Source: Bacteroidota bacterium (GTDB lineage Bacteria; Bacteroidota; Bacteroidia; Bacteroidales; Lentimicrobiaceae). Taken from it: DNA of 64,000 bases. Shown here piece by piece: positions 29,013 to 59,717 of the stretch. The stretch spans positions 186,001-250,000 of the forward strand of contig WSXU01000002.1 of assembly GCA_009773455.1 (NCBI GenBank). The letters run 5' to 3'. The notes under the pieces were generated by a model that was not told the DNA's origin, made no database searches, and saw only the letters and a list, made by a program, of their open reading frames with translations. Position numbers and translations under genes: made by a program. Positions within the stretch are counted from its first letter, which is position 1, and each line of letters starts with the position of its first letter.

Positions 29013-29090
29013 GGTCTGGTTGTTTTATGCGAACCGGGTCCTGCTTTCAAATTAGTGAATACCGGGTGCCCCTATTGAAATTTACTTTAC

Positions 29091-29195
29091 TCACTACTCG
29101 CAACTCATAACTCATAACTCACTACTCATAACTCATAACTCACTACTCCTTACTCCTTACTCCCTACTCCCTACTCCCTACTCCCTACTCAACAC
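29091..29195. repeat. Heptamer array, TCNNNAC family (15 units)
   Basis: Fifteen consecutive units all have the form TCnnnAC: tcactac, tcgcaac, tcataac twice, tcactac, tcataac twice, tcactac, tccttac twice, tccctac four times, tcaacac. The first two and last two bases of each unit are invariant, while the middle three vary in runs. It ends 3 bp from the GLPGLI gene stop codon and fills the gap to the outer-membrane protein gene. The same family occurs at 59669-59717. Confidence 0.95.
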
Positions 29196-50230: not shown

Positions 50231-51280
50231 ATGACAGACAACACTAACCCACAGCGTACCGAACTGTCGGCCCTCGGCGAATTCGGCCTGATCAGCCACC
50301 TTACCACCGGCCTGAAAACCTTCCATAAGAGCACCCTGAAAGGTGTCGGTGACGATGCTGCGGTTATTGACAATGGTGATGAGGTAACCCTGGTCTCAAA
50401 GGATCTGCTGGTTGAAGGGGTTCATTTCGATCTTACCTACACTCCGCTCAGGCACCTCGGCTATAAGGCAGCTGTCGTAAATATTTCAGACATTGTTGCC
50501 ATGAACGGCACACCCACCCAGATGCTGGTGGGAATTTCCGTTTCAAACCGCTTCTCGGTTGAAGCCCTCGATGAATTATATGCCGGTATCAGGCTGGCCT
50601 GTGAACGGTATAAAGTTGACCTTGTAGGGGGTGATACCACTTCCTCGGTTTCAGGATTGTTCCTTTCCATAACTGTTATCGGCCGGGCAAAAAAGGAGGA
50701 GGTCGTATACCGGAATACTGCCCGTGAACACGATCTGATCTGCGTAAGCGGCGACCTGGGAGGTGCCTACATCGGCCTGCTGCTGCTGGAGAGGGAAAAA
50801 CAGGTTTACAAAGCCAACCCGCAAATGCAACCCGAACTGGAAGGAAACGACTATGTACTTGAACGCCAGCTGAAACCGGAAGCCAGGGTTGATGTGCTTG
50901 AAAAACTCCGCCTGGCCGGTATTAAGCCAACCGCCATGATTGATATATCGGATGGCCTGGCCAGTGAAGTGCTTCACATTGCCAAAGATTCGGGTCTGGG
51001 CTGCCGCATTTATGAAAACAAAATTCCGATCGATGTCGTCACTGCCGATATAGCCGCCGAATTCAAACTCGACCCGACCACTGCAGCAATGAACGGAGGT
51101 GAGGATTATGAACTTCTTTTCACGGTTGATGTGAACGATTTCGAAAAGGTAAAGGACCTCAAAGGCATTCACATCATCGGTCATATGCTGGAGAAAGCGG
51201 AAGGAGAATACCTGATCAGTAATGGCGGAAGTTTATATCCGATTGAAGCACAAGGGTTTGATCATATGAAGGTAGATTAA
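50231..51280 (+). CDS. thiL: Thiamine-phosphate kinase
   Basis: A 349-residue ThiL, which phosphorylates thiamine monophosphate to the diphosphate. The N-terminal motif ELSALGEFGLISHLT, the GVGDDAAVI loop, LVEGVHFDLTYTPLRHLGYKA and DIVAMNGTPTQML are family signatures. The PurM-type nucleotide site is complete: DLVGGDTTSS, MIDISDGLASEVLH and AMNGGEDYELLF. It stands alone, with its own promoter, and is followed immediately by a heptamer array that starts at the base after the stop codon. Confidence 0.96.
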   Translation: MTDNTNPQRTELSALGEFGLISHLTTGLKTFHKSTLKGVGDDAAVIDNGDEVTLVSKDLLVEGVHFDLTYTPLRHLGYKAAVVNISDIVAMNGTPTQMLVGISVSNRFSVEALDELYAGIRLACERYKVDLVGGDTTSSVSGLFLSITVIGRAKKEEVVYRNTAREHDLICVSGDLGGAYIGLLLLEREKQVYKANPQMQPELEGNDYVLERQLKPEARVDVLEKLRLAGIKPTAMIDISDGLASEVLHIAKDSGLGCRIYENKIPIDVVTADIAAEFKLDPTTAAMNGGEDYELLFTVDVNDFEKVKDLKGIHIIGHMLEKAEGEYLISNGGSLYPIEAQGFDHMKVD

Positions 51281-51383
51281 GATTAAGCTCAAAGTTCAAA
51301 GCACAAAGCACAAAGCCCAAAGTTTACCCGCCTTTGGCGGGATCAAAACTCAAAGTTTAAAGTTTATCCGCGCCAGGCGGGCT
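51281..51383. repeat. Heptamer array with two GC-rich hairpins, left arm of inverted pair
   Basis: It starts right after the thiL stop codon with gattaag, ctcaaag, ttcaaag, cacaaag, cacaaag, cccaaag. Then a perfect hairpin CCCGCC-TTT-GGCGGG (51327-51341), then atcaaaa, ctcaaag, tttaaag, tttatcc (51342-51369), then a second hairpin CCGC..GCGG (51368-51380). The first block is the reverse complement, unit by unit, of the array at 52014-52052. Confidence 0.9.
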
Positions 51384-51540
51384 CAAAATCCCAACAGTTT
51401 AATTAAATTTAGGAGCTTTTTCCCGTTTTTAAGATAAAATTAAATCTGAGAGGAAGTTAGAAATTTAATAATCTGTTCGTATTTCATAGCAGCATTTTCA
51501 TCAGGCGAAGTTATCATTCTTTATAGTGTTGATTATAATT

Positions 51541-51589
51541 CCTGACTATCAGGACCATAAGTATTTTCGAAATAACCATAATTCGAAAA
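51541..51589. repeat. Two palindromes upstream of the four-helix-bundle gene
   Basis: CCTGA-CTA-TCAGG at 51541-51553, and TTTTCGAA (51564-51571) pairing with TTCGAAAA (51582-51589) across a 10-bp spacer. The second lies 37 bp before the ATG and could be an operator or an RNA hairpin in the leader. Confidence 0.6.
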
Positions 51590-51625
51590 AATTCCGATTT
51601 TAAAAACAATAAAATTCTATTATTT

Positions 51626-51988
51626 ATGGGAAAATATGATTTATCAGAAAGGCTGCTCAATTTTGCAGTAGATGTAATATATTACAGCAGGACGCTTGAA
51701 AACTCAATAGAAAACAGAATAATTAAACACCAGCTGATCAAAGCATCCACTTCCGCGGGCGCTAATTATGAAGAAAGCCAGGGAGCAGCTTCCAACGCGG
51801 ATTTTATTAATAAAGTAAAAATCTCGCTTAAAGAAATGCGGGAAGCAAACTATTGGCTTAAAGTGATTAAAAAGACCAATATATCAGGAAATAAAAATGA
51901 AGAATTAGAGAGATTAACGGATGAATCAGATCAACTCAGAAAAATTCTGGGTGCAATAATTCAAAAGAAAAGTGCTAAAATTCAATAG
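51626..51988 (+). CDS. Four-helix-bundle protein of the S23/IVP family
   Basis: A 120-residue protein of the four-helix-bundle family first seen in intervening sequences of 23S rRNA genes (S23). The sequence has the family pattern: LSERLLNFAVDVIYYSRTL, then IIKHQLIKASTSAGANYEESQGAASNADFINKVKISLKEMREANYWLKVI, and a helical C-terminus with DESDQLRKILGAII. Relatives include Avd of diversity-generating retroelements, but no reverse transcriptase is in this window. The gene is visibly A/T-richer than thiL and uvrC, stands alone between them and is bracketed by inverted heptamer arrays, suggesting a moveable unit. Function unknown; an RNA or DNA role is inferred from family context. Confidence 0.88.
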   Translation: MGKYDLSERLLNFAVDVIYYSRTLENSIENRIIKHQLIKASTSAGANYEESQGAASNADFINKVKISLKEMREANYWLKVIKKTNISGNKNEELERLTDESDQLRKILGAIIQKKSAKIQ

Positions 51989-52013
51989 ATATCTATATCG
52001 GATAAAAGGAAAT

Positions 52014-52052
52014 CTCTTTACTTTGGGCTTTGAACTTTGAGCTTTGAGCTTC
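52014..52052. repeat. Heptamer array abutting uvrC start, right arm of inverted pair
   Basis: Units ctcttta, ctttggg, ctttgaa, ctttgag, ctttgag, then cttc. It ends at the base before the uvrC ATG at 52053. Reverse-complemented, it reads ctcaaag, ctcaaag, ttcaaag, cccaaag, the same words in the same order as the left array at 51288-51322. Confidence 0.9.
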
Positions 52053-53858
52053 ATGATGACTTCTCAAAACATACTTACGATCCTGAAAACCCTCCCGAAC
52101 GACCCCGGGGTGTATCAGTATTACGATAAGGATGGAACCATCATTTATGTGGGGAAGGCAAAAAATCTGAAGAAGAGGGTTATGTCCTACTTCAACAAGG
52201 ACAGTTCACTTCCCGGTAAAGTGAGGGTGCTGGTGGCCCGGATTGCCGATATCCGCTGGATCGCTGTAGAAAGTGAATCGGATGCATTGCTGCTCGAAAA
52301 CAACATGATCAAGGAGTACCAGCCCAGGTATAACATCATGCTGAAAGATGACAAGACCTATCCCTGGATTTGCATAAAAAGTGAACCCTTCCCCCGCGTT
52401 TTCCCTACCCGAAACCTGATCAAAGACGGTAGTGAGTATTTCGGACCCTATGCTTCCGTAAAAATGATGAATACGCTGCTCGACCTGATCAGGCAGCTTT
52501 ACCCCTTGCGCAATTGCGGTCTGAGTCTTACAAGGCAGAACATCAGCGCAGGGAAGTTCAAAGTCTGCCTTGAGTACCACATCGGCAACTGTCTCGGCCC
52601 CTGCGAGGGATTGCAGAATGAAGAGGATTATCTTGAAACCATCAGGGGTATCCGTGGGATCATCAAAGGTAACATCAGTATGGTTAAGAACCAGCTTGCC
52701 GGTCTGATGAAACATTATGCCGAAACTTTTGCCTATGAAAAAGCACAGGTAGTAAAAGAGAAGATTGAACTGCTTGACCGATACCAGAGCAAGTCGCTGG
52801 TGGTCAACCCTTCCATCAACAATGTGGATGTTTTTTCCATCATTGAAGATGAACACTCTGCCTATGTCAATTTCGTAAAGGTAGCCTCAGGTGCCATCAT
52901 ACAGTCGCATACCGTTGAACTGAAAAAGAAACTTGATGAAACCACAGAGGAACTGCTTTCGATGGCCATTGCCGATCTGCATCCCCGTTTCAGCAGCGGA
53001 GCTGCAGAGATCATCGTCCCCATAATGCCGGAATTCAGGTTGCCCGATCTCACATACACCGTCCCGCAAAGGGGGGATAAAAAGCAACTGCTTGAATTGT
53101 CGGAACGCAATGCAAAATATTACCAGCTGGACAAGCAACGCCAGAAAGAACTTGTAGACCCTGAACGACGTACCAAACGTATCCTTGACACCATCAGAAA
53201 GGACCTTGGCCTGAAAGAACTGCCGGCCCATATGGAGTGTTTTGATAATTCAAATATTCAGGGCACCTATCCGGTGGCTGCCATGGTGGTATTCCGGAAT
53301 GCAAGGCCGGAGAAGAAAGATTACAGGCACTTTAATATTAAAACCGTGGAAGGACCCGATGATTTTGCTTCCATGGAAGAAGTTGTGTACCGCCGTTACA
53401 GCCGGCTGCTCGAAGAAGGACAGGAACTTCCGCAACTGGTGATTATTGACGGTGGGAAAGGTCAGCTCAGTTCCGCAATGAATAGCATCGAAAAACTAGG
53501 CCTTAAGGACAGGATCCAGCTGATCGGGATTGCCAAACGGCTCGAAGAACTGTATTTCCCCGGCGATTCACTGCCCCTGCATCTTGACAAAAAGTCAGAG
53601 ACCCTGAAGGTTATCCAGCAGATGCGCGATGAAGCCCATCGTTTTGGGATAACCCACCACCGAAAACGCAGGGAAAAAGGAACCATCAAAACCAGTCTTT
53701 CCGACATTGAGGGCATCGGACCAGCCAATTCCCAGGCTCTGCTGAGGAAATTCAAATCCGTTAAAAACATCAGGCAGGCGTCCTTTGAGGAACTTGAATC
53801 GGCCATTGGGAAATCGAAAGCTGCCATTGTGTTTGGCCATTTCCATCCTGAACAATAA
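52053..53858 (+). CDS. uvrC: UvrABC excinuclease subunit C
   Basis: A 601-residue UvrC. The N-terminal GIY-YIG nuclease domain is seen as DPGVYQYYDKDGTIIYVGKAKNLKKRVMSYF, the UVR motif as AEFAYEKAQVVKEKIELLDRY-like EKAQVVKEKIELL, the RNase H-like domain with ECFDNSNIQGTYPVAAMVVF and LPQLVIIDGGKGQLSSA, and the helix-hairpin-helix at the C-terminus (LSDIEGIGPANSQALLRKF). It makes both incisions in nucleotide excision repair. The start is ATG 52053 (or the next ATG at 52056); the upstream frame only translates the array, which forms the gene's leader. Confidence 0.96.
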   Translation: MMTSQNILTILKTLPNDPGVYQYYDKDGTIIYVGKAKNLKKRVMSYFNKDSSLPGKVRVLVARIADIRWIAVESESDALLLENNMIKEYQPRYNIMLKDDKTYPWICIKSEPFPRVFPTRNLIKDGSEYFGPYASVKMMNTLLDLIRQLYPLRNCGLSLTRQNISAGKFKVCLEYHIGNCLGPCEGLQNEEDYLETIRGIRGIIKGNISMVKNQLAGLMKHYAETFAYEKAQVVKEKIELLDRYQSKSLVVNPSINNVDVFSIIEDEHSAYVNFVKVASGAIIQSHTVELKKKLDETTEELLSMAIADLHPRFSSGAAEIIVPIMPEFRLPDLTYTVPQRGDKKQLLELSERNAKYYQLDKQRQKELVDPERRTKRILDTIRKDLGLKELPAHMECFDNSNIQGTYPVAAMVVFRNARPEKKDYRHFNIKTVEGPDDFASMEEVVYRRYSRLLEEGQELPQLVIIDGGKGQLSSAMNSIEKLGLKDRIQLIGIAKRLEELYFPGDSLPLHLDKKSETLKVIQQMRDEAHRFGITHHRKRREKGTIKTSLSDIEGIGPANSQALLRKFKSVKNIRQASFEELESAIGKSKAAIVFGHFHPEQ

Positions 53859-59512: not shown

Positions 59513-59717
59513 GCGCATCTTATCTTCTGATGCGCGCATAAGAAGAGCAATCCCCCACAACCACCGGTGGCTTCGATACGATTTGCATTCAGCTGTTTAA
59601 AACTCCCAAAAAAAAAGCAAATCACTCAGCCACCTCAGCCTTCCTTTCTGGTTTATATACTTACTCTTCTCCTTACTCCATACTCCTTACTCCTTACTCC
59701 TTACTCCTTACTCATAT
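59513..59717. repeat. Inverted repeats and ACTCCTT heptamer array
   Basis: GCGCATC (59513-59519) pairs with GATGCGC (59529-59535), and CTTAT in the loop could pair with ATAAG at 59538-59542. At 59669-59717 are seven heptamers: ctcctta, ctccata, ctcctta four times, ctcatat. This 332-bp gap between the phosphatase and permease genes has no gene. Confidence 0.75.

Follow-up and report, generated by a model that had tools for sequence, protein, structure and literature searches.

The window analysed here, a 64,000-nucleotide stretch of a contig from a Bacteroidota bacterium of the Lentimicrobiaceae, holds a single small gene in the spacer between thiL and uvrC, and this gene is bracketed by two arrays of short repeats that abut the neighbouring coding regions (Table 1). 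Its product is a clear member of the S23 / four-helix-bundle family, with profile searches matching it to TIGR02436 (E=2.4e-23, 82 bits against a cut-off of 24) and to PF05635 (E=1.2e-15, 58 bits against a cut-off of 33.8), and it resembles the structure deposited as PDB 2rld (E=5.4e-16). The pattern CAAAGNNCAAAG occurs seven times in the window, four times on the forward strand (51290-51322) and three times on the reverse (52021-52046); the expectation is 0.3, and none of 100 shuffles reached seven.

Table 1. Features of the thiL-uvrC region, in positions of the window
Feature	Position	Strand	Remark
thiL (AIRS/AIRS_C domains), upstream neighbour	50231..51280	+	cassette begins just past the thiL stop codon
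Left array, CTCAAAG TTCAAAG CACAAAG CACAAAG CCCAAAG	51285..51322	+	CAAAGnn units
Degenerate continuation of left array, TCAAAGTTTAAAGTTT...	51319..51402	+	broken by two short hairpins
Hairpin CCCGCCTTTGGCGGG	51327-51341		inside left-array continuation
Hairpin CCGCGCCAGGCGGG	51368-51381		inside left-array continuation
S23 / four-helix-bundle protein gene	51626..51988	+	120 aa
Right array, CTTTGGG CTTTGAA CTTTGAG CTTTGAG CTT	52021..52051	+	inverted match to left array
uvrC, downstream neighbour	52053..53858	+	ATG directly after right array

We detected inverted arms throughout by the local-alignment score of the left flank against the reverse-complemented right flank. In the window this score is 44, compared with 20 for the flanks in direct orientation and at most 26 for shuffles, confirming the preliminary description of this locus as an S23 gene set within inverted arrays. 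The same description had the two arrays carrying identical words in the same order. The words do match, but their order is not strictly kept, as the best 32-bp alignment contains four mismatches. The hairpins in the left array are small and of the CCCGCC..GGCGGG type, and GC-rich hairpins (CCCGCC..GGCGGG, TCCCGAT..ATCGGGA) are also found in arrays at loci L143 and L350-L356; at L356 the TCCCGAT hairpin is present in each arm at matching positions, with loops that differ. Long TACTCAC/CTCCTTA arrays without an S23 gene lie elsewhere in the window (29088-29191 and 59669-59713), G-rich right after a stop codon, and their words belong to the family also seen in the L001 arrays.

S23 genes and their arrays across genomes

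This genome carries ten S23 genes, nine of which are flanked by inverted short-period arrays. The idea that other S23 copies would lie between inverted arrays of one family was therefore borne out for the arrays but not for the family: each of the nine loci has its own word of 7-9 bp, matched between its two arms (GAGTAAG, GACAAGGG, GGTTACAG, GGAGCGA-like, AACTAAC, TTTGAGGAT, GGAATGATG, CAAAGTT and AATTTCT). Their inverted-arm scores range from 27 to 56, against 18-25 in direct orientation and a mean of 19.5 (maximum 28) for arms drawn from mismatched loci; L004, the weakest at 27, is marginal against these controls. In a sample of 770 kb of this genome, taken as stretches, all eight S23 genes scored at least 27, while 16 of 539 other genes scored at least 26. 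Seven of the latter reached 30 or more, four of these being the GxxExxY gene or genes that border an S23 unit. Matched pairs of inverted arms thus hardly occur outside S23 genes, GxxExxY genes and the genes directly beside them.

The tenth gene (L007) has no arrays. S23 genes lacking flanking arrays had been named in the preliminary description as telling against its reading, but this sole case belongs to a distinct orthologue family and in substance the reading survives it. L007 and its 15 orthologues form a resident, genus-conserved S23 family, mostly 136 aa long and without arrays. Among 96 S23 loci from 31 related genomes (many of them MAGs), these 16 are always in sense with both neighbours, and only one of them scores above 26, the 95th percentile for mismatched pairs, compared with 63 of the 80 non-resident loci (the other 17 do not). 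The resident family is likely domesticated, and serves as a natural control. Where both neighbours of a non-resident gene are known (76 cases), all three genes point the same way in 66, and no non-resident gene runs antisense to both neighbours. At about ten non-resident loci long direct arrays replace the inverted ones or stand alongside them, and the S23 genes of L137, L143, L131 and L133 lie inside very long direct arrays of hundreds of bp.

Beyond these relatives, few small proteins of unknown function are as common in Bacteroidota as S23, which is present in 116 of 148 sampled genomes, some of which hold 10-16 copies. Inverted arms above the 95th percentile were found at 14 of the 30 loci checked in this sample, and for 48 of 86 S23 genes in a second set of 80 named loci, which includes Flavobacterium, Pedobacter and Tangfeifania together with MAGs of Cloacimonadota, Nitrospinia, Anaerolineae and Desulfobacteraceae. 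In the subclade that makes up this second set, AGT recurs roughly every 7 nt in nearly all words. Taking the 115 array-bearing loci together, the left array starts a median of 4 bp past the upstream stop codon, the unit measures a median of 554 bp from arm to arm, and 91 of the 115 units run in the same direction as both neighbours. In 100 of 110 loci, and in 32 of 35 protein clusters, the left arm is rich in G and poor in C. Values of dN/dS lie between 0.03 and 0.3 in eight of ten informative S23 orthologue pairs, a signature that shows purifying selection on the protein, which must therefore be translated and useful to something.

The array word also tracks the protein. Across the 115 loci, which span many phyla and come in many cases from MAGs, S23 identity correlates with the 4-mer similarity of the arms once pairs with homologous neighbourhoods are excluded (Mantel r=0.37, p=0.0005, permutation maximum 0.15); the correlation is 0.29 across data sets and 0.25 and 0.20 within them, all significant. 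At the level of sequence, then, co-variation of array word and S23 protein is shown, unrelated sites and phyla included, and the preliminary proposal that S23 handles the arrays gains support as a candidate function. Part of the co-variation may stem from shared ancestry of entire units and not from recognition; both predict it, and either would make the arrays part of the element.

Gain, loss and exchange of units

At the thiL-uvrC junction, an S23 orthologue lies between inverted arrays in three genomes (G000, G011 and G017), with a different word in each. In the other genomes of the genus where this junction is fully covered the two genes are adjacent, with neither S23 nor arrays. Gene and arrays are thus jointly present or jointly absent, as the preliminary description had anticipated for a mobile unit, and the arrays-only junction that it had named as contrary evidence did not appear among the empty junctions examined. 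Arm scores within each of the three genomes are 44, 40 and 57, against 17-42 when arms are paired across genomes, from which it appears that both arms change together.

A comparable picture emerges from the leucine-degradation operon. The junction between the acyl-CoA dehydrogenase and HMG-CoA lyase genes is occupied in six genomes by one S23 type with GACAAGG arrays (the array matches being weak in some), in five by a second, unrelated type with GGGACGAG arrays, and in four by no unit. At the junction before it, some genomes have array-bearing GxxExxY genes, while others have a decayed copy, the remnant of an array or nothing at all. Within the genus, the operon is a hotspot at which units turn over. 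In G000 the operon (C82:172604-180078) has three array-flanked units (L002, L010 and L129) in its gene junctions.

Exchange between close relatives is seen in G001 and G005, where flanks that are 92.6% and 94.2% identical enclose S23 genes and arrays that are unrelated; the same junction measures 52-62 bp in G012 and G006. Conversely, L141 and L257 share 619 bp of homology that runs from the outer edge of the left array to the outer edge of the right. Because this homology ends at the array edges and the neighbours are unrelated, the arrays belong to the unit. Genome comparison thus shows the gene and both arrays to be gained, lost and swapped as a whole, in the space from one gene's stop codon to the start codon of the next. 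The preliminary description had taken the arrays for the ends of a mobile or rearranging unit; the mobile part of this gains support, as gene and arrays come, go and exchange together, but inversion or phase switching through the inverted arms is not supported, the units being nearly always in sense. No target-site duplication could be read at S23 units, where the spacers of filled and empty sites diverge too fast, and the neighbours of L178 were absent from the six other genomes searched, which therefore offer no empty L178 site.

Candidate explanations and known systems

We consider it probable that the thiL-uvrC interval is a mobile one-gene cassette with terminal arrays that are recognised, as DNA, by the S23 protein of the same unit, a reading in which binding and the mechanism of movement are inferred. 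Such a cassette would be built as array, S23 gene and inverted array, with one word shared by both arrays, which would serve as the element's terminal recognition sites and be bound as DNA by S23 through their repeated units. The arms would be held matched by a DNA-level process, either the use of one template for both at insertion or later conversion. The cassette encodes S23 alone, and the S23 gene contains no recognisable recombinase. Because we know of no nuclease or transferase activity in S23, strand transfer would probably fall to another enzyme, supplied by the host or acting in trans. With units inserted in sense and hard against the coding ends, the host operon would be spared. Against this reading stand the 17 non-resident loci whose inverted arms do not pass the 95th percentile, the loci with long direct arrays, and the solo arrays that occur without S23. 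A wider form of this reading, which we advance tentatively and with somewhat less than even confidence, is that small non-catalytic S23 proteins, and GxxExxY proteins in parallel, define widespread and undescribed one-gene selfish elements. Each would recognise lineage-specific inverted ends of tandem 7-9-mers, protein and word would co-evolve, and each site would see its two arms rebuilt jointly, perhaps through synthesis of repeats at broken ends, given the strand bias of the left arms.

The closest analogue is the intervening sequence (IVS) of 23S rRNA genes in Coxiella and Leptospira, in which, as in the cassette, an S23p ORF lies within complementary ends, and which is cut by RNase III, is patchily present and has been proposed to be a selfish or mobile element (PMC4990558). 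The cassette differs in occupying spacers of protein operons, at thiL-uvrC as at the other copies, in having ends made of tandem arrays of 7-9 bp units whose word changes from locus to locus, and in arms that carry no G.U signature. We do not class it as an IVS because it does not lie in an rRNA gene. The parallel does raise an RNA-level alternative, in which the arms pair in a polycistronic mRNA and RNase III cuts the stem to free the S23 message from thiL and uvrC, the arrays being there for the sake of this stem. The units are in sense, as this would require, and both arms are predicted to close into an RNA stem around the S23 gene (-194.9 kcal/mol, z=-6.1). However, selection on a sense RNA stem should tolerate G.U pairs, so that G.U should outnumber A.C among the arm mismatches, and no such excess was seen either in the genus set (55 vs 49) or in the 115 loci (123 vs 148). 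The match between arms is therefore not explained by RNA-stem selection, for which the G.U test was twice negative, and a stem alone would need no tandem word that tracks the S23 protein. The predicted fold would be compatible with IVS-like processing; taken as a whole, the RNA-level alternative seems unlikely.

A second alternative, which we rate as distinctly unlikely, is that S23 regulates its own gene or the operon by binding the flanking arrays, and that the module is retained for this role and disseminated through ordinary recombination, not as a selfish element. Co-variation of protein and array, purifying selection on S23 and the position of units inside operons would all suit such a module. 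Its patchy presence would not, nor would the swapping of unrelated S23 types at the same junction in close species; the host genes are unrelated housekeeping genes, and inverted rather than direct symmetry is left unexplained.

GxxExxY genes have an architecture in common with S23 units and bring in a third alternative, that the units are passengers of classical transposons, moved in trans by IS transposases through other ends. An element of about 700 bp in G011 encloses a GxxExxY gene together with its inverted arrays; it has GGGTTATT..ACCC ends, apparent 8-bp target duplications and about ten copies of 79-95% identity, and forms a recently active MITE-like family. Because an outer element with its own ends carries this family, its amplification is ruled out as proof that array units are intrinsically mobile. 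At S23 units such outer ends were not noticed, the arrays beginning almost directly after the neighbour's stop codon, and we consider the passenger explanation very improbable. Least credible of all is coincidence between arrays plentiful in Bacteroidota spacers (about five intergenic arrays per 100 kb, of which two thirds lie away from S23, solo arrays included) and a merely common small spacer gene, a reading already disfavoured by the array-less resident orthologues, the tracking of protein by word and the gene control, and by empty sites that lack arrays.

The favoured DNA-level cassette was also compared with other described systems. Entries for the S23 family (TIGR02436/PF05635, with solved structures 2rld and 2gsc) include the encoded protein but cover the protein only. 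The accessory protein Avd of diversity-generating retroelements (DGRs) shares a superfamily with S23, and the L001 and L007 proteins of this genome match NF033474 below its cut-off, but the window locus has neither a reverse transcriptase nor template and variable repeats, its neighbours being thiL and uvrC. Retro-mobility through a resident reverse transcriptase was rejected on the case of G001, which has eight S23 genes and no RVT_1 match. Like REP/RAYT systems and IS/MITE elements, the cassette is small, with inverted ends seemingly co-specific with one protein. It differs in having no recognised transposase, S23 alone being encoded where REP/RAYT pairs an HUH transposase with palindromic REPs, and its ends are degenerate tandem arrays, not palindromes. 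IS/MITE copies have one terminal inverted repeat in common, but here every locus has its own word, which also rules out a single word family as a classic terminal inverted repeat. TAACTGA-type heptameric intergenic arrays likewise consist of tandem 7-bp units, lie in spacers close to start codons and turn up sporadically in different phyla, but are direct repeats of a single word, unlike the inverted arms of the cassette; 'four helix' is not mentioned in that account (PMC4679880). Searches of the open-access literature brought up no account of S23 or GxxExxY cassettes flanked by arrays.

Taken together, the comparative evidence points towards a small selfish gene cassette of a kind not described before, with a protein that would recognise the ends of its own unit. 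The link between S23 and the arrays supplies this protein with a candidate ligand of testable specificity, ties the rRNA IVS to a far larger family of cassettes in mRNA spacers, and suggests how operons may gain and exchange spacer genes. To our knowledge, heptamer arrays in spacers have no accepted explanation, and a class of selfish elements, if real, would account for many of the enigmatic arrays in Bacteroidota.

The copies of the G011 element are found at L349, L350, L351, L352-L356, L360, L362 and L363, and several of them run up to the edge of a contig. The resident S23 family has a parallel in a resident GxxExxY orthologue (L130, L332-L337; about 127 aa), which mostly overlaps the upstream gene and is without arrays.
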